From assembly GCA_017474235.1 (NCBI GenBank), contig JAFVIB010000044.1, forward strand, positions 35,785-99,784: a stretch of 64,000 nucleotides of DNA, read 5' to 3'. The translations under genes were made by a program, and so were the position numbers. Origin of the DNA: Alistipes sp. (GTDB lineage: Bacteria; Bacteroidota; Bacteroidia; Bacteroidales; Rikenellaceae). A model generated the notes under the pieces. That model was not told where the DNA came from. It saw only the letters and a program-made list of their open reading frames with translations, and ran no database searches. Shown piece by piece: positions 3,886 to 36,766 of the stretch. The first letter of the stretch is position 1; each line of letters begins with the position of its first letter.

Positions 3886-3893
3886 TATTTTTG
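3886..3893 (+). promoter_or_regulatory. -7 element (TATTTTTG), predicted leaderless start
   Basis: This exact TAnnTTTG match ends 5 nt before the ATG at 3899. Given where this element normally sits relative to +1, transcription would begin at or next to the start codon. No clear TTTG is present at -33, so the promoter is inferred from the -7 box and spacing only. Confidence 0.45.
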
Positions 3894-3898
3894 CAGTT

Positions 3899-4669
3899 AT
3901 GTTTACACTTGCAACATATAATACCTTTCTTATCGTCATGGCAGCTGTTGCCGTGGTGGTATTTATAGTTCTCTATTTTGTTGATGCCGGCTATGGGTAT
4001 CTGTTCAACCCCAAGTTCGGTTTTCCTATCCCCAATAGGGTTGCATGGGTACTTATGGAGTCGCCGGTGTTTATTATAATGACTATTCTGTGGTGGTTAT
4101 CTGATGTTCGCTTTGAGGTAGCTCCACTTGTACTGTTTATTATATTCCAGACACACTATTTCCAGCGTTCATTCATCTTCCCGCTCCTGATTCGCGGCAA
4201 CTCAAAGATGCCATTCGGAATTATGCTTATGGGTATGATATTCAACTCTTTAAATGCAATTATGCAGGGCGGTTGGATATTCTACTTGGCTCAGGAGCAG
4301 GGTTACTATGACGGCTGGATGTGTAAACCATACATATATATAGGTGCAGCAATATGGCTTGCAGGTTTTATTATCAACCTGCACTCTGACTACATTATTC
4401 GCCACTTGCGTAAGCCGGGCGATACAAAGCACTACATCCCAAAAGGTGGAATGTTCCGCTATGTATCATCGGCAAACTACTTTGGCGAGCTGACAGAGTG
4501 GGTAGGCTTTGCTGTTGCAAGTTGGTCTTGGGCAGGTGTAGTCTTTGCCCTTTGGACCTTTGCAAACCTCGGACCGCGTGCAAACTCGCTCTACAAACGC
4601 TATGAGCGCGAGTTTGGCGAAGAGTTTACATCCTTAGGTAGAAAACGAATAATCCCATTTATCTATTAA
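3899..4669 (+). CDS. Steroid 5-alpha-reductase family membrane enzyme
   Basis: This 256-residue polytopic protein matches the length and residue pattern of eukaryotic SRD5A enzymes, which reduce the delta-4 double bond of 3-oxo steroids with NADPH. Visible family positions are E54 (MESP), H86-Y87-R90 (HYFQR), N160/D164 (NLHSD), the IPKGGMFRYVS stretch from 180, N193-Y194-E197 (NYFGE), E200-W201, N223, R227 and Y235, and the closing R-x-x-PF. From N160 onward the numbering coincides with human SRD5A2 as I remember it. About seven hydrophobic helices are present. One base separates it from the flavin reductase gene. In known gut Bacteroidales clusters the homologue makes 5-alpha (allo) bile acids; substrate here is inferred. 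Confidence 0.85.
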   Translation: MFTLATYNTFLIVMAAVAVVVFIVLYFVDAGYGYLFNPKFGFPIPNRVAWVLMESPVFIIMTILWWLSDVRFEVAPLVLFIIFQTHYFQRSFIFPLLIRGNSKMPFGIMLMGMIFNSLNAIMQGGWIFYLAQEQGYYDGWMCKPYIYIGAAIWLAGFIINLHSDYIIRHLRKPGDTKHYIPKGGMFRYVSSANYFGELTEWVGFAVASWSWAGVVFALWTFANLGPRANSLYKRYEREFGEEFTSLGRKRIIPFIY

Positions 4670-4670
4670 T

Positions 4671-5912
4671 ATGAAGAAAGATTTACAAGAGTCTAAACTC
4701 TTTACCCCATATAAGATGGGTCCTGTAACTCTTCGTAACCGAGTAATTCGCTCGGCTGCCTTTGAGAGTATGGGTAAGGACTTTGCTCCGACACAGGACT
4801 TAAAAGACTACCACACAAGCGTTGCTCGTGGCGGTGTGGGTATGACAACTCTTGCCTATGCATCTATTAACCGTAGCGGAGTATCGTTCAACTCTCAGCT
4901 TTGGTTGCGCGACGAGATTATACCTCAGCTGCGCGACATTACCGAGGCTGTGCATAACGAGGGTGCTGCCGTAGGTGTTCAAATTGGTCACTGTGGAAAT
5001 ATGACCCACTGGTCAACCGCCGGTTCGTTCCCCGTATCGGCATCTAACGGATTTAACCTCTACTCCCCTACCTTCCACCGTCGTATGAGCCATAGCGAGA
5101 TAGCGCAGACTGCAAAGGATTTCGGCAAGGCTGTCTATACGGCTCACGAGGCTGGTTTTGACTCTGTTGAGGTACACGCAGGTCACGGATACCTTATCTC
5201 TCAGTTCCTCTCTCCGTGGACAAATCGTCGTAGAGATGAATTTGGAGGCTCACTTGAAAACCGTATGCGCTTTATGAAGATGTGCCTTACCGAGGTTATG
5301 GAGGCTGCTGCTAAGTGCAATATGGCGGTACTTGTAAAGCACAATATGGAGGATGGCTTCAAGAGTGGTATTCAGATTCCTGAGAGTATAGAGATTGCTA
5401 AAGAGATTGAAAAGTTTGGCGTACACGGCATAGTACTCTCTTCAGGCTTTGTTTCTCGCGCCCCAATGGTGGTTATGCGCGGTCGTATCCCTACAAAGAC
5501 TATGGGCTACTATATGGGTTGGAACGAGTGGTTGCAGAAGATTGTCGTTTCACTCTTTGGTCAGTGGATGATTAAGGACTACGACTTTGAGGAGTGCTTC
5601 TTCCTTGAAAATGCAAAGAAGTTCCGTGCAGAGCTTAAGGGTCCGCTGGTATATGTTGGCGGTCTTGTATCGCGTGAGGGTATCGAAAAGGTTCTTGACG
5701 AGGGATTTGAGATGGTGCAGATGGCACGCGCGCTGGTAAACGACCCTGCATTTATCAACAAACTGCGCGAGGGAGACTTTACTACCCGTGCAGGTTGCGA
5801 CCACCGCGACTACTGCATCGCCCGTATGTATTCAGATAAGATGATATGTTGTCACAACTGCACCGAGCATATTCCGGAGCGTTTGTGGAAAGAGTTGCGT
5901 AAAATTAAGTAA
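4671..5912 (+). CDS. NADH:flavin oxidoreductase, Old Yellow Enzyme family; candidate steroid/bile-acid ene-reductase
   Basis: This 413-residue FMN TIM-barrel enzyme is of the OYE family. Landmarks are the N-terminal FTPYKMGPVTLRNR, the QIGHCGN region near residue 105, the family signature VHAGHGYLISQFLSP near 165-180 followed by NRRRDEFGGS, and the phosphate-binding YVGGL near 327. Unlike BaiCD/BaiH-type reductases (over 600 residues) it lacks the C-terminal flavin/NAD(P)H domain. Near the end there is a cysteine cluster (C-x5-C-x10-CC-x2-C) where related enzymes hold a 4Fe-4S cluster. It is one base from both neighbours. The 5-beta-reductase role in the bile-acid clusters is the best analogy, and is an inference. 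Confidence 0.85.
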   Translation: MKKDLQESKLFTPYKMGPVTLRNRVIRSAAFESMGKDFAPTQDLKDYHTSVARGGVGMTTLAYASINRSGVSFNSQLWLRDEIIPQLRDITEAVHNEGAAVGVQIGHCGNMTHWSTAGSFPVSASNGFNLYSPTFHRRMSHSEIAQTAKDFGKAVYTAHEAGFDSVEVHAGHGYLISQFLSPWTNRRRDEFGGSLENRMRFMKMCLTEVMEAAAKCNMAVLVKHNMEDGFKSGIQIPESIEIAKEIEKFGVHGIVLSSGFVSRAPMVVMRGRIPTKTMGYYMGWNEWLQKIVVSLFGQWMIKDYDFEECFFLENAKKFRAELKGPLVYVGGLVSREGIEKVLDEGFEMVQMARALVNDPAFINKLREGDFTTRAGCDHRDYCIARMYSDKMICCHNCTEHIPERLWKELRKIK

Positions 5913-5913
5913 T

Positions 5914-6720
5914 ATGCGTCGTGGAGAGGTTGTAAAGGGTTCAAAGACCGCCCTTGTCACAGGTGCATCAACAGGCATCGGTCGTTGCTATGCCGAACAG
6001 CTGGCTGCTTTGGGCTATAATCTTATTATCGTTAGTCGCGATGGCGAACTACTCAATAAAGCTGCAAGGGAAATTACTGATACACACGGAGTTAAAGTTA
6101 GTGTTTTAGCAAAAAACCTCGCAACACTCACAGCCGCCGAGGAGCTTTACGAGTGGACAAAGAGCGAGGGTCATACGGTCAATGTACTTATAAATAATGC
6201 CGGAATGTTCTCATTCTGCGACATTCTTGACACCCCTACCGAGCGTATTAAAGAGACTATTCTGCTGCACGATGTAACAAACACTATGCTCTGTAAGCTC
6301 TTTGCAGCAGATATGGCATCTCGTGGTGGCGGACACATTCTCAATATGTCATCTTACTCTATTTGGATGCCTTGGCCCGGACTGTCGTTGTACAGCGCAA
6401 GTAAGGCATACCTAAAGTCGTTCTCTGTTGCCTTTGCAAAGGAGGTGCGCGAGAAAAAGGTCTATGTAACAGCAGTCTGCCCTGCCGGTATTGCCACTGA
6501 CCTATACGGACTAAGTAAGAAGTGGCAAAAGATTGGACTTAATATCCACGCGCTATCTACTCCGAAGTTCTGCGCTCGTCGAGGTCTGAATAGTCTGTGG
6601 CGACGCCGACGCTCTGTAGTTCCTGACTGGTGGATGCGCCTACTTATACCAATTCTTGAGTATCTGCCGATGTTTATTCTGCGCTGGATGAGAGGTTTTA
6701 CAAAGAAATGGCAGAAATAA
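5914..6720 (+). CDS. Short-chain dehydrogenase/reductase; candidate hydroxysteroid dehydrogenase
   Basis: This is a classical SDR of 268 residues. The dinucleotide-binding TGASTGIG is near residues 14-21, the structural NNAG near 94, the catalytic Ser in MSSYS near 148, and the YSASK catalytic Tyr-Lys pair near 161-165. A basic, hydrophobic C-terminus (from about residue 225) suggests membrane association, as in 17-beta-HSD12-like enzymes. Its position directly after the 5-alpha-reductase and OYE genes suggests oxidation or reduction of the 3-hydroxyl of the same substrate, matching the 3-beta-HSDH in known Bacteroidales bile-acid clusters. Coenzyme and stereochemistry cannot be read from sequence. 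A strong terminator follows. Confidence 0.82.
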   Translation: MRRGEVVKGSKTALVTGASTGIGRCYAEQLAALGYNLIIVSRDGELLNKAAREITDTHGVKVSVLAKNLATLTAAEELYEWTKSEGHTVNVLINNAGMFSFCDILDTPTERIKETILLHDVTNTMLCKLFAADMASRGGGHILNMSSYSIWMPWPGLSLYSASKAYLKSFSVAFAKEVREKKVYVTAVCPAGIATDLYGLSKKWQKIGLNIHALSTPKFCARRGLNSLWRRRRSVVPDWWMRLLIPILEYLPMFILRWMRGFTKKWQK

Positions 6721-6740: not shown

Positions 6741-6785
6741 AATACCAAAAAAAGTCTTTTTTATCGCTTTTTTTGGTATTTTTAT
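6741..6785 (+). terminator. Terminator of the steroid-reductase operon
   Basis: A 14-bp stem (6741-6754 with 6767-6780) is followed by a T-rich tail. It separates the enzyme operon from the surface-protein genes. Confidence 0.8.
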
Positions 6786-6894: not shown

Positions 6895-9162
6895 ATGAAA
6901 AACTTTTTCCGTAGTTTGGTTGCAGTAGCCGTATTGTTTGGTGCTGCATCTTGTACCACAGAAGATTTATCTACTTCTGTAGTAGGCGGTGGTGAGTCTG
7001 TAGAGCTTACCATTACAGCTAATCTTGCTCAGATTGGCACTCGTACCCTTGGTGACGGTACTCAGGTGGACCGAGTTTATCTTGGTGTTTATGAGAACGG
7101 TGGCGGTTTCCTTGATGAGCTTACTCAGGATGGCGGTTATGCAGTTGATGCTGCCGGCAAGGCTACTATTCCTGTTGTTCTGCTGAAGAACAAGAAGTAT
7201 GACCTTGTATTCTGGGCTCAGAATGACGAGGTGGGTAACACCTGCTACACTGTCGATTGGACAAACCGTAAGCTCTCTGTAGATTACACAAATGTTGAGT
7301 CTCAGGTTGAGAAGCGTGATGCGTTCTTCCTTGTTCAGAACGGCTTTGAGGCTGGTAAGGACGAGACTACATTCAAACTCAATCGTCCATTTGCACAGCT
7401 CAATGCAGGTTTGAGCGCAGAGGAGGTTACTAATGTTACTAACAACGGTGTTGTTGTAGCAGACATCCAGTCTAAGGTTACTGTTGAGGTTGCTAAGACT
7501 ATGAGCTTTGCAGACAATACAGGTGCTGTTTCTGACCTTGAGTCTATTACTTTTGCAATGGCTGCTAAGCCAACAGAGAGTCTCTCTGCTGCAAACGGCA
7601 CTTACAATTGGCTCTCAATGAACTACCTGCTTGTTAATGAGTATAAGCTCGTTAATGTTGCTTATGAGTTCCTCGAGGGTGGCACAACTTACAAGCGCAA
7701 CTACGCATCAGTTCCTGTACAGCGTAACTACCGCACAAATATTATCGGTGCGCTGCTTTCAAGCACTTTCGATTTCAATGTTGAGATTGTTCCTGGATTT
7801 ACAAATGATCACGAAGTTAAGTCTAATGTAGCAAGTTCTACTGAGCTTCTTGCAGCTATCAAGAGCGGTATGCCTGAAATTACCCTTAGTGATGACATTA
7901 CAATCAACGAGACTTTGGTATTCGAGCCTAAGACAAGAGCTGCTGTTACAGATTATACCCTTAACCTCAATGGTAAGGCTATCACAAACACTGTTGACAG
8001 CAATCCTACTGATGTTATCATCGTTAAGGAGGGTGTAACTCTTACTATCAACGGAAATGGTAGTGTAACTGCTGTTAGCGGCAATGACGGATTTACTATT
8101 ATCTCAGAGGGTAAGGTAATCATCAATGATGGTACTTACCGCAGTGGTCTTGACGCAACCAATGATGGTAACTGCACCGTATATGCACGCGGCAAGGGCG
8201 AGGTTTATATCTATGGTGGTGATTTCTCAACTCCTGATGGTGACGATGAGACTTATGTTATCAATAAGAAGGATGCAGACAAGGCTACCACAAAGATTGT
8301 AATCTATGGTGGTACTTTCAAGAACTTCGACCCAGCATTGGGTAAGACTGAGAATCCTACAGAGGGTTTCGTAGCCGAGGGTTACAAGTCTGTTAAGGAT
8401 GGTAATTTGTATGTAGTTGTTCCTGCAACTGTTGATGCTGTTGCATCTACTTCAACTGCTGTCACAGAGGCTTTGGCAGAGGGCAAGAGCGTGGTTCTCT
8501 CTCAGGATGTTGAGGCTACTGCAACTATCCAAATGAGCAATGCAGAGGCTGTTCTTGACGGTAACGGCAAATCAATCTCTGGAGATCTTACAGGTTACTA
8601 CAACTCTGCAGTAAGCACTGTTGGTGGTACTATTAAGAATATCTCTATCGTAACAGGTTGCGAGCGTTCTATCACATCAGATAAGTTTGAGGGTGACCTT
8701 ATCATCGACAATGTAACTACAGATAAGACCGGCTATGGTCTTAATGTTCGCCCTTCAAACAATGGCGATGGTTACAAGATGATTGTTACAAACTCTACTT
8801 TCAAGGCTTGGAACTCATTTACTTGCCCTGCAACATTTACAAACTGCCACTTCGGTCAGGGTGAGTATTGGGTAAATAAAGGTTATCCAGATGCATATGA
8901 CCGTTTGATTAAACCTTACACCGATGTTGTTTTTGAGAACTGTACATTTGAGAAGGGTTTCTATCTTGACCTCTCAGCTTATGTAGGCACAACTGTAAAG
9001 CTTGTAAATTGTAGCGTTGCAGGTGTTGCTCTTACAAAGGATATGTTCAAGAATCAGAGCACATCTACATCCGGAAATCAGCTTGTTTCCGAGCTTGACG
9101 GCAATACTGCTCTTTGGTATGAGGCTACTGATGCTGTTTGGGCAACTGTTGTAGTTGAGTAA
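6895..9162 (+). CDS. Surface lipoprotein: DUF6562/fimbrillin-like N-terminus plus parallel beta-helix-like C-terminus
   Basis: This 755-residue exported lipoprotein has a signal peptide ending in the lipobox FGAASC (Cys20). Residues ~30-310 resemble the DUF6562 / Mfa-like fimbrillin group (ANLAQIGTRTLGDGTQ, KKYDLVFWAQND). Residues ~315-510 and 515-750 then carry repeated short beta-turn motifs (ITLSDDITIN, LTINGNGSVTA, VIYGGTFKNF, VFENCTFEKGF) typical of right-handed beta-helix folds. The protein is probably displayed on the outer membrane; whether it polymerises or binds glycans is not visible. It is transcribed alone from a consensus promoter and ends in a terminator. Confidence 0.75.
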   Translation: MKNFFRSLVAVAVLFGAASCTTEDLSTSVVGGGESVELTITANLAQIGTRTLGDGTQVDRVYLGVYENGGGFLDELTQDGGYAVDAAGKATIPVVLLKNKKYDLVFWAQNDEVGNTCYTVDWTNRKLSVDYTNVESQVEKRDAFFLVQNGFEAGKDETTFKLNRPFAQLNAGLSAEEVTNVTNNGVVVADIQSKVTVEVAKTMSFADNTGAVSDLESITFAMAAKPTESLSAANGTYNWLSMNYLLVNEYKLVNVAYEFLEGGTTYKRNYASVPVQRNYRTNIIGALLSSTFDFNVEIVPGFTNDHEVKSNVASSTELLAAIKSGMPEITLSDDITINETLVFEPKTRAAVTDYTLNLNGKAITNTVDSNPTDVIIVKEGVTLTINGNGSVTAVSGNDGFTIISEGKVIINDGTYRSGLDATNDGNCTVYARGKGEVYIYGGDFSTPDGDDETYVINKKDADKATTKIVIYGGTFKNFDPALGKTENPTEGFVAEGYKSVKDGNLYVVVPATVDAVASTSTAVTEALAEGKSVVLSQDVEATATIQMSNAEAVLDGNGKSISGDLTGYYNSAVSTVGGTIKNISIVTGCERSITSDKFEGDLIIDNVTTDKTGYGLNVRPSNNGDGYKMIVTNSTFKAWNSFTCPATFTNCHFGQGEYWVNKGYPDAYDRLIKPYTDVVFENCTFEKGFYLDLSAYVGTTVKLVNCSVAGVALTKDMFKNQSTSTSGNQLVSELDGNTALWYEATDAVWATVVVE

Positions 9163-9180
9163 CAAAAATGTCATACTATT

Positions 9181-9209
9181 AAACTGCGCTCTTCGGGGCG
9201 CAGTTTTTT
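9181..9209 (+). terminator. Terminator after the fimbrillin-like gene
   Basis: The stem AACTGCGC / GCGCAGTT with a short loop is followed by six T. The T tract doubles as the -33 element of the next promoter. Confidence 0.8.
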
Positions 9210-9238
9210 GTATATATACAGAATATTGGTTACTTTTG
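9207..9238 (+). promoter_or_regulatory. Consensus promoter TTTG-N20-TACTTTTG
   Basis: The -33 TTTG (9207-9210) comes out of the preceding terminator's T tract and the -7 box is at 9231-9238. The ATG follows within 11-17 nt, so the leader is very short. Confidence 0.7.
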
Positions 9239-9255
9239 CGGAAAATTTTATGACT

Positions 9256-10764
9256 ATGAAGAGCATTTTTAAGTACGCAGTAATGTTTTCTACCCTACTC
9301 TGCCTTGCGGCGTGTGGAGGTGGAGAGGATACGCCAACAGACGACCCAAATAATGGTAATCCTGATGTTCCGGAGCAGGTTGCTGCGCTTACAATCAGCA
9401 TAACCGATATTACAGCCACTGCGGCACGAGTATCTGTAACCCCGCAAAGTAAGACCACGAAGTACTACTTCGACATTCTGCGTGCCGAGTACTACAGAGA
9501 GTACAACGAACAGTTTGGTTTCCAGCGTTTTATAAACAACACTATAAACAGTCTGATGAATGCCAACAGTATGACCAAAGAGGATGTACTCTCGCGCATT
9601 CTCTCGGCAGGCGACGACTCATACGGCTTCACAGGGTTGGATGCCGACACGGAGTACTATGCCGTAGCTATGGGCATTGACCAAGATGGACTGATAACCA
9701 CAGAGATTTATTCCGAGTCGTTCAAAACAGCGGCTGTAAAGCCTTCAGATAACACCTTTGCGATAGATATCAAGTCTGTAAGCTACGAGAGTGTTTCATA
9801 CTCCGTAAAACCCAAAAACAATGAGCCTTATGTGCTGATATATTGGAACAAGCCTATTGTCGATAAGCTCGGCGACAAGTTTATAGACCACTGTATCGAG
9901 TCGCGCTCGGATATAGAGAGTTTTGTGGTTACAGGCAGTCAGACCGGCGTCTTTAATGATTGTGTACCCGGCAGAGATTACTATCTTGTAGCATTCGGCT
10001 TTGACGGAGGACTACCAACGACAGCCATAACAAAAGCTTCTTTTACAACAAAAGCAGATGCAGACCCTTCTCAGTGTAAGTTTACATTCGCAGTGAGCGA
10101 TATCCAGTACGATCGCGCTTATATGAAGGTCACTCCATCGGCAAAGCACACACCTTTCTTTTGGAGCGTTGTCGAGAAGAGCTACTACGAGGAGTTGGTA
10201 CGCACTGTCGGAGCAGAGGAGGGTATGAAGAGCGTTCTTGCTGAGTCTTTAGCCCCATTTGCGACCGATTTCGGCAATATTTATGATGCGCTGGAGATTA
10301 TCACCTCATATAACGATGTGAGCGTAGAGGGCACAACCTACGGTCTTGAGCAGGGCAAGGAGTATATTCCGTGGGCAGTTGCAATAGACAATGGCGGTAA
10401 TGCCACAGCTGAGTTTGTTATGGGCAACGGATTCAAAACAAAGATTGATTCTGTTGCAGACTGCACCGTCGAGGTTAAGGGTAGCTTCGAGGCAGGTAGC
10501 GACGGCAAGGCAGTGCTTATATCGACAGCAAAACCTGACGACAAGTGCGTGAATTTCTATAATGTCATCTTCCAAGGCGATTTAAGAGACGCGTCGCGCC
10601 AAAGCCTGCTCAATAATATTATCAAGATGGGCTTTAAGAATCAGAGAGAGGTAAAATTTGAGAAGTGCCCGTGGAATCAACCTGCAAGTGCTATTGCCGT
10701 AGGCGTCGATGCTGACGGCAACTTCGGCGAAATTGCAATTGATGTCTTTATCCCGATAAAGTAG
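9256..10764 (+). CDS. Lipoprotein with repeated fibronectin type III-like domains
   Basis: This exported lipoprotein is about 502 residues long. The signal peptide KSIFKYAVMFSTLLCLAAC ends in a clear lipobox, followed by a GGGE anchor-exit motif typical of surface-exposed Bacteroidetes lipoproteins. The rest divides into about four ~110-residue modules that each begin with alternating beta-strand patterns (LTISITDITATAARVSVTP, FAIDIKSVSYESVSYSVKP, FTFAVSDIQYDRAYMKVTP, CTVEVKGSFEAGSDGKAVL), read as diverged fibronectin III-like repeats. An ATG six bases upstream (9250) is an alternative start. The function is unknown; an adhesin or ligand-binding surface protein is likely. Confidence 0.7.
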   Translation: MKSIFKYAVMFSTLLCLAACGGGEDTPTDDPNNGNPDVPEQVAALTISITDITATAARVSVTPQSKTTKYYFDILRAEYYREYNEQFGFQRFINNTINSLMNANSMTKEDVLSRILSAGDDSYGFTGLDADTEYYAVAMGIDQDGLITTEIYSESFKTAAVKPSDNTFAIDIKSVSYESVSYSVKPKNNEPYVLIYWNKPIVDKLGDKFIDHCIESRSDIESFVVTGSQTGVFNDCVPGRDYYLVAFGFDGGLPTTAITKASFTTKADADPSQCKFTFAVSDIQYDRAYMKVTPSAKHTPFFWSVVEKSYYEELVRTVGAEEGMKSVLAESLAPFATDFGNIYDALEIITSYNDVSVEGTTYGLEQGKEYIPWAVAIDNGGNATAEFVMGNGFKTKIDSVADCTVEVKGSFEAGSDGKAVLISTAKPDDKCVNFYNVIFQGDLRDASRQSLLNNIIKMGFKNQREVKFEKCPWNQPASAIAVGVDADGNFGEIAIDVFIPIK

Positions 10765-35332: not shown

Positions 35333-36766
35333 ATGGGCTTGCTAAATTTCTTTACTCCTCCCGCAAAAAAGCCGATGATGGCTTCAGAGAAAATTGACAA
35401 AGAGTATAAAAAGATGCGTCTTAAGGTCTTTTTAGGCATCTTTTTGGGTTATGCAGCTTACTACCTTGTTCGTAAGAATCTCTCCCTTGCAGCTCCAGGA
35501 ATGATTGAGCAGGGGCTGATTGACAAAGCTGGTGCAGGTCTTGCGATGTCAGGTATTCCGATTGCCTATGCATTCAGTAAGTTTCTGATGGGCAGTCTGT
35601 CAGATCGTTCTGATGCGCGCAAGTTTATGACCGTAGGTCTTGTACTATCATCGCTGGTGATGATAGTTGCAGGTGTTCTGCCATACCCTACAGGTGTCGA
35701 TGGGAACTACTCTGTCACTGTCGGACTTATGTTCGTGTTTATGCTCCTTGCCGGTTGGCTTTCAGGTATGGGCTGGCCCCCTTGTGGACGAGTACTTGCA
35801 CATTGGTTCTCGACAAACGAGCGTAGTTTTAAGATGTCTGTTTGGAATACGGCTCATAATGTAGGTAACGGAACACTCGGTCTGCTTATCCCTGCCGGTG
35901 TTATCATATTCAGCGCATTTGGAATTGGGGAGACTTGGCGTGCTGCATTTATTGTCCCTGCATTGGTGGCAATGCTTATTGCACTATTCTGTTGGTGGGC
36001 TATTCGCGACACACCGGAGTCTTGCGGTCTGCCATCAATCGAGAAATACCGCAATGACTATTCAGGTGCGAAAGCAGCGAAAGGCGAGGAGGATAAAATT
36101 CCGTTCCGTCGTCTGTTTATAGACTACATCTTCAAGAACAAACTGCTTTGGCTTATCGCCTGCGCAAATGTCTTTATCTATCTTATTCGCTACGGTATTG
36201 CAGATTGGTCGCCTACATACCTTACAGAGGTCTATGGTTGGAGCAAGGATGATGCGTCGTTAGCTTACGCAATCCGCGAGTATGCCGGTATTCCGGGTAC
36301 TATCCTCGGTGGTTGGATATCATCTAAGTTCTTCAATGGTCGTTGCGCTCCGGTAAATGTAATCTTCCTCATTGCAGTAACTATCGGTATTCTGACCTAT
36401 TGGCAGGCAGGAGCTGTTGCAGAGTTTACCCATATTCCTATCACTTGGCTTATTTACGGTTCTCTTGCTCTTATCGGTGGTGCTATCTACGCACCGGTAG
36501 CGATGATTGGTATTCAGGGTCTTGCGATTGTACCAAAGAATGCAGCGGGTACTGTAGCCGGTTTCTTGAGCCTTTGGGGTTATCTTATTGGCGATGCTGT
36601 TCTGTCAAAGATTGTTTTGGGTCGTGTTGCTCAGAGTTCGCTCGGTTGGGATGCGACCTTCTGGGTATTTACCATTGGCGCACTCTTGGCAGCCGTTATC
36701 TGCCTTACCTCATGGGGTAAAGAGAAGAGAATGATGGAGGAGAGAATAGCAGCCGCAAAAGAGTAG
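35333..36766 (+). CDS. Organophosphate:phosphate antiporter (GlpT/UhpT family)
   Basis: This is a 477-residue Major Facilitator protein with about 12 helices. It carries the OPA-family opening YYLVRKNLSLAAPGMIE (residues ~43-59), with the conserved Arg, and the loop motif GSLSDRSDARKFM near 86. GlpT and UhpT exchange glycerol-3-phosphate or hexose-phosphate for phosphate. The specific substrate is not visible. It sits 25 nt after kdsD and 2 nt before ubiD in the long operon. Confidence 0.87.
   Translation: MGLLNFFTPPAKKPMMASEKIDKEYKKMRLKVFLGIFLGYAAYYLVRKNLSLAAPGMIEQGLIDKAGAGLAMSGIPIAYAFSKFLMGSLSDRSDARKFMTVGLVLSSLVMIVAGVLPYPTGVDGNYSVTVGLMFVFMLLAGWLSGMGWPPCGRVLAHWFSTNERSFKMSVWNTAHNVGNGTLGLLIPAGVIIFSAFGIGETWRAAFIVPALVAMLIALFCWWAIRDTPESCGLPSIEKYRNDYSGAKAAKGEEDKIPFRRLFIDYIFKNKLLWLIACANVFIYLIRYGIADWSPTYLTEVYGWSKDDASLAYAIREYAGIPGTILGGWISSKFFNGRCAPVNVIFLIAVTIGILTYWQAGAVAEFTHIPITWLIYGSLALIGGAIYAPVAMIGIQGLAIVPKNAAGTVAGFLSLWGYLIGDAVLSKIVLGRVAQSSLGWDATFWVFTIGALLAAVICLTSWGKEKRMMEERIAAAKE

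Follow-up and report, generated by a model that had tools for sequence, protein, structure and literature searches.

A predicted steroid-reductase operon of Alistipes ends in a short-chain dehydrogenase distinct from that of Parabacteroides clusters

The 64,000-nucleotide stretch of Alistipes sp. DNA analysed here (the window; positions 35,785–99,784 of contig JAFVIB010000044.1, assembly GCA_017474235.1) contains a three-gene operon encoding a steroid 5-alpha-reductase (5AR), an ene-reductase of the Old Yellow Enzyme family (OYE) and a short-chain dehydrogenase (SDR). As judged from their sequences, the 5AR clusters of gut Bacteroidota use two different SDR subfamilies, SDR1 and SDR2; the cluster in the window ends in SDR1, whereas Parabacteroides clusters end in SDR2. 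We consider it probable that this operon is a steroid A/B-ring inverter for bile acids or other 3-oxo steroids, the end product being a 3-oxo-5-alpha compound or a 3-hydroxy epimer set by SDR1. The genes, with the evidence for each, are:

3899–4669, + strand: 5AR, steroid 5-alpha-reductase, 256 amino acids (Pfam, structure-sequence matches, alignment with SRD5A2)
4671–5912, + strand: OYE, single-domain flavin mononucleotide (FMN) ene-reductase, 413 amino acids, putative 5-beta-reductase or delta4-dehydrogenase (Pfam, structure model)
5914–6720, + strand: SDR1, classical short-chain dehydrogenase, 268 amino acids, with Ser147-Tyr160-Lys164 (Pfam, alignments, structure model)

A sequence-only reading of the window had described this locus as a compact operon of SRD5A-like, OYE and SDR genes with one-base gaps, and that description holds: the three open reading frames (ORFs) lie on the same strand, each separated from the next by a single base, and match the Pfam families Steroid_dh (PF02544; E = 1.3e-42, 145.8 bits against a cut-off of 22.6), Oxidored_FMN (6.3e-57, one barrel domain) and adh_short (1.1e-40), respectively. 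We infer that they form one transcript. The source genome is 1.97 Mb in size with 98.9% completeness.

The distinction between the two SDR subfamilies rests on their motifs and nearest structures. The classical SDR tetrad is Asn-Ser-Tyr-Lys, of which SDR1 keeps Ser, Tyr and Lys; the Asn position is marked by one codon:

6268–6270, + strand: codon of SDR1 His119, where the tetrad usually has Asn

This position is His in all 42 SDR1 rows of the alignment and Asn in all 46 SDR2 rows, and chain 2et6 (MFE-2) likewise has His in the Asn column. The nearest solved sequences are 2et6 and 6zdz for SDR1 and 3rd5 for SDR2. The SDR1 model (mean predicted local distance difference test score, pLDDT, 92.9) is nearest to a bulky-ketone alcohol dehydrogenase (6ze0), to 4bmv and to HSD17B13, with the 7-beta-hydroxysteroid dehydrogenase (HSDH) 5gt9 lower in the ranking; at 18–29% identity, these structural matches indicate the fold and not the substrate. 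SDR1 and SDR2 are thus ruled out as orthologues: motifs and nearest structures differ, and when all seven candidates in the window genome were scored no SDR2 was found, the top match to SDR2 being SDR1 itself, at 27% identity. SDR1 also diverges faster than its neighbours, with 75–84% identity to eight near relatives (L196–L203), compared to 94–97% for OYE and 88–94% for 5AR in the same eight.

The apparent absence of SDR2 extends to the genus. In a family set of 268 genomes, 180 of them in the genus of the window (Alistipes; genus counts were made by kinship codes), SDR2 was matched at 1e-25 in 23 genomes overall and in 0 of the 180, with at most nine candidates scored per genome and some genomes incomplete. 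SDR1 was matched in 202 of the 268 at 1e-45, a count that may include paralogues, as many genomes have two matches. No published account of the SDR1/SDR2 split was found in the literature searched, which did not include the original cluster paper and so gives no proof that the split is unpublished.

Gene orders across Bacteroidales show how the two subfamilies are distributed. They were scored in named loci, the 80 of 562 confirmed relatives that rank highest by likeness to a Parabacteroides-type sequence, many of which are gut isolates or animal-gut metagenome-assembled genomes (MAGs) by title (for some, such as L126 and L128, no source is named). Among these 80 loci, 5AR-OYE-SDR2 occurs in 20 (plus 2 cut by contig ends), 5AR-OYE-SDR1-SDR2 in 20 (plus 1), 5AR-OYE-SDR1 in 13 (plus 2), 5AR alone in 11, 5AR-OYE followed by a contig end in 6 and 5AR-SDR2 in 2, with one locus each of 5AR-OYE, 5AR-OYE-OYE-SDR2 and 5AR-OYE-SDR1-SDR1. 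One locus, L135, was counted as 5AR alone owing to an overlong ORF; OYE and SDR1 actually adjoin it. Bacteroides loci carry 5AR-OYE-SDR2 in 12 of 18 cases, with one more cut after SDR2; the others comprise one split OYE, two loci with no OYE, one with 5AR apart from OYE-SDR2 and one MAG with both SDRs. Parabacteroides loci have the same order in 4 of 6, one of the remaining two being cut and the other being 5AR alone. Both SDRs are present in 3 of 4 Odoribacter-type loci and in 4 of 5 Barnesiella or Coprobacter loci; SDR1 was seen in the Odoribacter-type loci L070, L073 and L074. The 19 Rikenellaceae-type loci hold SDR1 only in 11, both SDRs in 2 and SDR2 only in 1, and 5 are cut or were scored as 5AR alone. 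OYE lies beside 5AR in 67 of the 80 loci. Among 59 loci fetched with the 5AR searches of the family and Bacteroidales genome sets, 57 have the two genes next to each other (the exceptions are L023, whose contig ends, and L057), so their pairing is not due to chance. 5AR-SDR2 without OYE was seen in L084 and L095, and also in L186 and L187 (L215 repeats the G208 cluster already seen as L186). In L090, L091, L092 and L113, 5AR and OYE are about 1.4–4 kb apart.

Parabacteroides separates the two modules further. Among 38 genomes, 5AR was found in 20 and SDR2 in 20, with 19 common to both. Of the 18 loci retrieved from 17 genomes by way of 5AR or SDR2, 15 have the order 5AR-OYE-SDR2. A strong SDR1 (2.8e-105 or better) occurs in 14 genomes without 5AR or SDR2; in all of these, OYE directly precedes SDR1, an adjacency shared with the window, which differs from them in having 5AR. 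In one of the 14 (L219 of genome G657, on a 4.81-Mb contig), this OYE is present as its second half only (residues 187–407). Six 5AR-bearing genomes contain an additional, weaker SDR1-like gene with no OYE beside it.

Clusters of this kind are already known, and the genus of the window is one for which the key activity has been listed; what seems new, as far as we have seen, is the SDR unlike that of Parabacteroides clusters, a genus seemingly without SDR2 and an odd cysteine site in OYE. As the sequence-only reading had stated, 5AR-bearing clusters occur in gut Bacteroidota, where genes for a predicted 3-beta-HSDH and an NADH:flavin oxidoreductase lie together with 5AR (Sato et al. 2021, as reviewed in PMC10382948), a 5AR, BaiCD-like flavin enzyme and SDR set like that in the window. 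With 3-oxo-delta4-LCA as the substrate, Parabacteroides merdae, Odoribacter laneus and Bacteroides dorei form isoallolithocholic acid (isoalloLCA), and in twenty other Bacteroidota strains the conversion ends at 3-oxoalloLCA; several Bacteroidota turn the 5-beta acids 3-oxoLCA and isoLCA into isoalloLCA, and P. merdae with a disrupted 5AR gives no allo products (PMC10382948). One review table names P. goldsteinii, B. thetaiotaomicron and A. onderdonkii under 5-alpha-reductase, the last converting 3-oxo-delta4-LCA to 3-oxoalloLCA, and O. laneus, Odoribacteraceae, P. distasonis and P. merdae under 3-beta-HSDH (PMC12692668). P. distasonis is reported to make LCA, 3-oxoLCA and isoLCA with a 5-beta-reductase and 3-alpha- and 3-beta-HSDHs (PMC11647740), a set of products that fits the OYE-SDR1 pair without 5AR in the 14 Parabacteroides genomes. 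Among chicken Bacteroidetes isolates, which include Alistipes, all encode the enzyme except two Odoribacter and P. distasonis (PMC6069880), and a link between Alistipes and 3-oxoalloLCA has been proposed as a hypothesis (PMC13233536). The pathway is also described in PMC12916643, PMC9645264, PMC11271093, PMC12292970 and PMC12697870, and P. merdae is covered in PMC13209567 as well. BaiP and BaiJ of Firmicutes carry out bile-acid 5-alpha-reduction, the reaction predicted for the window, and are distinct from the membrane-associated 5-alpha-reductases of Bacteroidetes (PMC9645264).

We infer the substrate, cofactors, reaction direction, stereochemistry and product of the operon as follows. Bile acids or other 3-oxo steroids reaching the gut lumen would serve as substrates. 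SDR1 would interconvert the 3-hydroxyl and the 3-oxo group, OYE, by means of its FMN, would form or saturate the C4–C5 double bond on the 5-beta side, and alpha-face reduction of the delta4-3-oxo intermediate by 5AR would give a flat 3-oxo-5-alpha product, the net course being an inversion from 5-beta to 5-alpha. Since no genome of the genus gave an SDR2 match, the main end product would be a 3-oxo-5-alpha compound (for example, 3-oxoalloLCA) or the 3-hydroxy epimer set by SDR1, rather than isoalloLCA formed by the SDR of the Parabacteroides clusters.

The sequence-only reading had likened the operon to the clusters of Odoribacteraceae and P. merdae with a 3-beta-HSDH and iso-allo products. 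A transfer of these from Parabacteroides is weak, since SDR2 was found neither in the window genome nor in the 180 genomes of the genus; that the composition is that of the Parabacteroides clusters, which have SDR2, is not supported. Odoribacter-type clusters do contain SDR1, next to SDR2. An iso-allo product could nevertheless arise if SDR1 itself were the 3-beta-HSDH and the operon worked as in P. merdae and Odoribacteraceae. This is consistent with the occurrence of SDR1 beside SDR2 in 7 of the 9 Odoribacter-, Barnesiella- and Coprobacter-type clusters and with the 3-beta-HSDH credited to P. distasonis (PMC11647740, PMC12692668), 5AR-less Parabacteroides having OYE-SDR1. We nonetheless regard it as unlikely: the analogy is weak because the SDR of the window differs from that of the Parabacteroides clusters, where 5AR-OYE-SDR2 prevails, SDR2 was matched in none of the 180 genomes of the genus, and A. 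onderdonkii is listed solely under 5-alpha-reductase in the table of PMC12692668.

Several observations weigh against ring inversion ending in a 3-oxo-5-alpha or SDR1-set product. The credit given to P. distasonis means that SDR1 could be a 3-beta-HSDH, and if P. goldsteinii and B. thetaiotaomicron, listed as makers of 3-oxoalloLCA (PMC12692668), carry SDR2 like most of the Bacteroides and 5AR-bearing Parabacteroides loci scored here, then SDR2 alone would not decide the product. Two loci titled Alistipes (L098 and L107) carry both SDRs. A tree of OYE was built by a quick method from 125 rows, of which 121 remained once duplicates had been taken out; ten OYE entries, from nine loci, had been excluded at the start because they were short, weak or truncated. 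In this tree the window falls among 29 rows with SDR1 only, which form a clade (SH-aLRT 100) bordered by rows with both SDRs, and the six label groups require 11 changes in all; a sign test of the association between 5AR and SDR2 found 2 independent pairs on starred branches and was not significant. For this test L242 was scored as lacking 5AR, which the same genome has on another contig (L243). Lastly, a search for a bile salt hydrolase gave no match in the window genome, so that free bile acids would depend on other organisms. Some cow Alistipes MAGs do carry this enzyme (PMC9750977).

The 5AR protein groups with steroid 5-alpha-reductases, a predicted function supported by its matches to the bacterial SRD5A 7c83 (2.9e-53) and to human SRD5A2 (3.7e-42). 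The match to an enoyl-CoA reductase is far weaker (1.6e-8), and that identity was rejected. In the alignment with human SRD5A2, 89 of 229 residues are identical, and human E57, Y91, N160, D164, N193, E197, R227 and Y235 correspond to E54, Y87, N160, D164, N193, E197, R227 and Y235 of the window protein. We take the Glu-Tyr pair to be catalytic and the others to form the NADPH site. All eight are invariant among 13 aligned sequences. The earlier claim of a full eukaryote-like set is right for these eight, whereas human Q56 is replaced by M53.

A 5AR match is present in 158 of the 180 genomes of the genus, and the 268 family genomes give 195 matches, 37 of them outside it. In a Bacteroidales set of 393 genomes, 116 match 5AR at 1e-3; one tier of these exceeds 50% identity, another lies at 34–41%, and there are weak partial matches besides. 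In the distant tier, OYE or SDR is nearby in 0 of 20 loci, some of which are cut by contig ends; in the nearer tier (51–58% identity), OYE is near 5AR in 10 of 20 loci and not in the other 10. Two 5AR copies were seen in each of two Bacteroidales genomes (L174 and L175 of G268; L181 and L182 of G379), with no OYE or SDR near them. Rough ratios of nonsynonymous to synonymous substitution (dN/dS) against nine near relatives (L196–L204) are 0.025–0.046 for OYE, 0.054–0.107 for SDR1 and 0.025–0.052 for 5AR (eight values, L204 not being computable), with dS near saturation. Wide occurrence in the genus, strong constraint, the partnerless distant tier and the 5AR standing alone in half of the nearer-tier loci are what might be expected of a housekeeping reductase of polyprenol or fatty acyl lipids unrelated to host steroids. 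We consider this very improbable, as 5AR is far closer to SRD5A1/2-type enzymes than to enoyl-CoA reductase and, unlike in the 20 distant-tier loci, is linked to OYE and SDR1; the contrast between the two tiers favours ring inversion.

The OYE protein, matched in 189 of the 268 family genomes at 1e-60, shares its family and predicted reaction class with BaiCD and the Clostridium innocuum 5-beta-reductase ci2350. It is not BaiCD itself, scoring 180.3 bits against an equivalog cut-off of 825, and with its 413 amino acids it lacks the C-terminal part of BaiCD, whose model spans 642 positions. The OYE model (mean pLDDT 90.4) has 2-naphthoyl-CoA reductase as its nearest fold, followed by 2,4-dienoyl-CoA reductase; YqjM is further down and trimethylamine dehydrogenase (TMADH), another near fold, is at rank 28. 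Near its C-terminus is an unusual site:

5796–5849, + strand: OYE C376-x5-C382-x10-C393, possibly what is left of an Fe-S site, or a variant form of one

All 37 sequences compared have Cys376, Cys382 and Cys393, and likewise His169, His172 and Tyr174; His378 is found in 35 of them. In a fragment search, the three cysteines align with three cysteines of TMADH, a weak match (E = 0.22). The Fe-S subclass of OYEs, with TMADH and FadH, has a cluster site of four cysteines. The aligned TMADH residues bind its cluster, and the fourth cysteine is Arg in the window protein, which also has no second domain.

SRD5A enzymes are active on delta4-3-oxo steroids in general. The same chemistry might therefore serve steroid hormones, or 3-oxo compounds derived from dietary or host sterols, as natural substrates, and 5-beta-reduction of hormones has been described for gut OYEs (PMC12238238). 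That work gives a substrate rule for two active-site positions: members of the hormone clade have Asn at the first and Ser at the second, those of the bile-acid clade Tyr or Ser at the first and Glu at the second; a word search of it found no Alistipes, Bacteroidota, Parabacteroides or Odoribacter. The corresponding window residues, located via the YqjM tyrosine and not by alignment to the protein of that paper, are Gly173 and Gln178, which seem to fit neither class, so that the rule gives no answer as a predictor. The Bacteroidota 5AR activities in PMC12692668 and PMC10382948 concern bile acids, with no hormone data in the parts available, and we hold non-bile-acid natural substrates to be improbable, about as much so as an iso-allo product.

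An extension of the ring-inversion reading is offered tentatively and with some doubt. Here the steroid clusters of Bacteroidales would follow a modular code in which 5-beta compounds are handled by OYE together with SDR1, and 5-alpha compounds by 5AR together with SDR2, SDR content predicting the bile-acid isomer that a species releases. Alistipes would then be a producer of 3-oxoallo acids (or alloLCA) that feeds isoallo makers, and OYE would act largely as a delta4-dehydrogenase with electrons leaving via the altered Fe-S site.

The operon is flanked by two candidate transcription signals:

3886–3893, + strand: TAnnTTTG box TATTTTTG, its end 5 bases upstream of the 5AR ATG
6741–6780, + strand: A/U-rich 15-pair hairpin followed by a U-rich stretch, terminator-like (RNA fold z −3.54)

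We take TAnnTTTG to be the Bacteroidota −7 promoter element. Of 30 loci examined in the genus, 11 (L001–L010 and L023) have it exactly 5 bases from the 5AR start, 2 have it elsewhere within 30 bases and 17 have none within that distance. The two strands of the window contain 43 and 34 such boxes as background. Because this promoter-like box is so near the ATG (3886–3898), the operon mRNA may be leaderless. The hairpin folds as well in 1 of 200 shuffles; it is absent from the list of a terminator scan of the window, which requires G-C pairs. Downstream, the product of the gene at 6895–9162 matches DUF6562 weakly (20.8 bits, below the cut-off of 25), and that of the next gene, at 9208–10764, has no Pfam match.

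Flat bile acids of the isoalloLCA type have been tied to Treg cells and to the inhibition of C. difficile (reviews including PMC10382948), and Alistipes to enrichment in old age and in centenarians (literature including PMC13233536). As the third gene of the Alistipes operon differs from the usual one of Bacteroides and Parabacteroides, its end product may differ as well. If gene content reveals the isomer made by each genus, metagenomes could be read for their bile-acid output, and labelling every 5AR cluster as isoallo would be an error.

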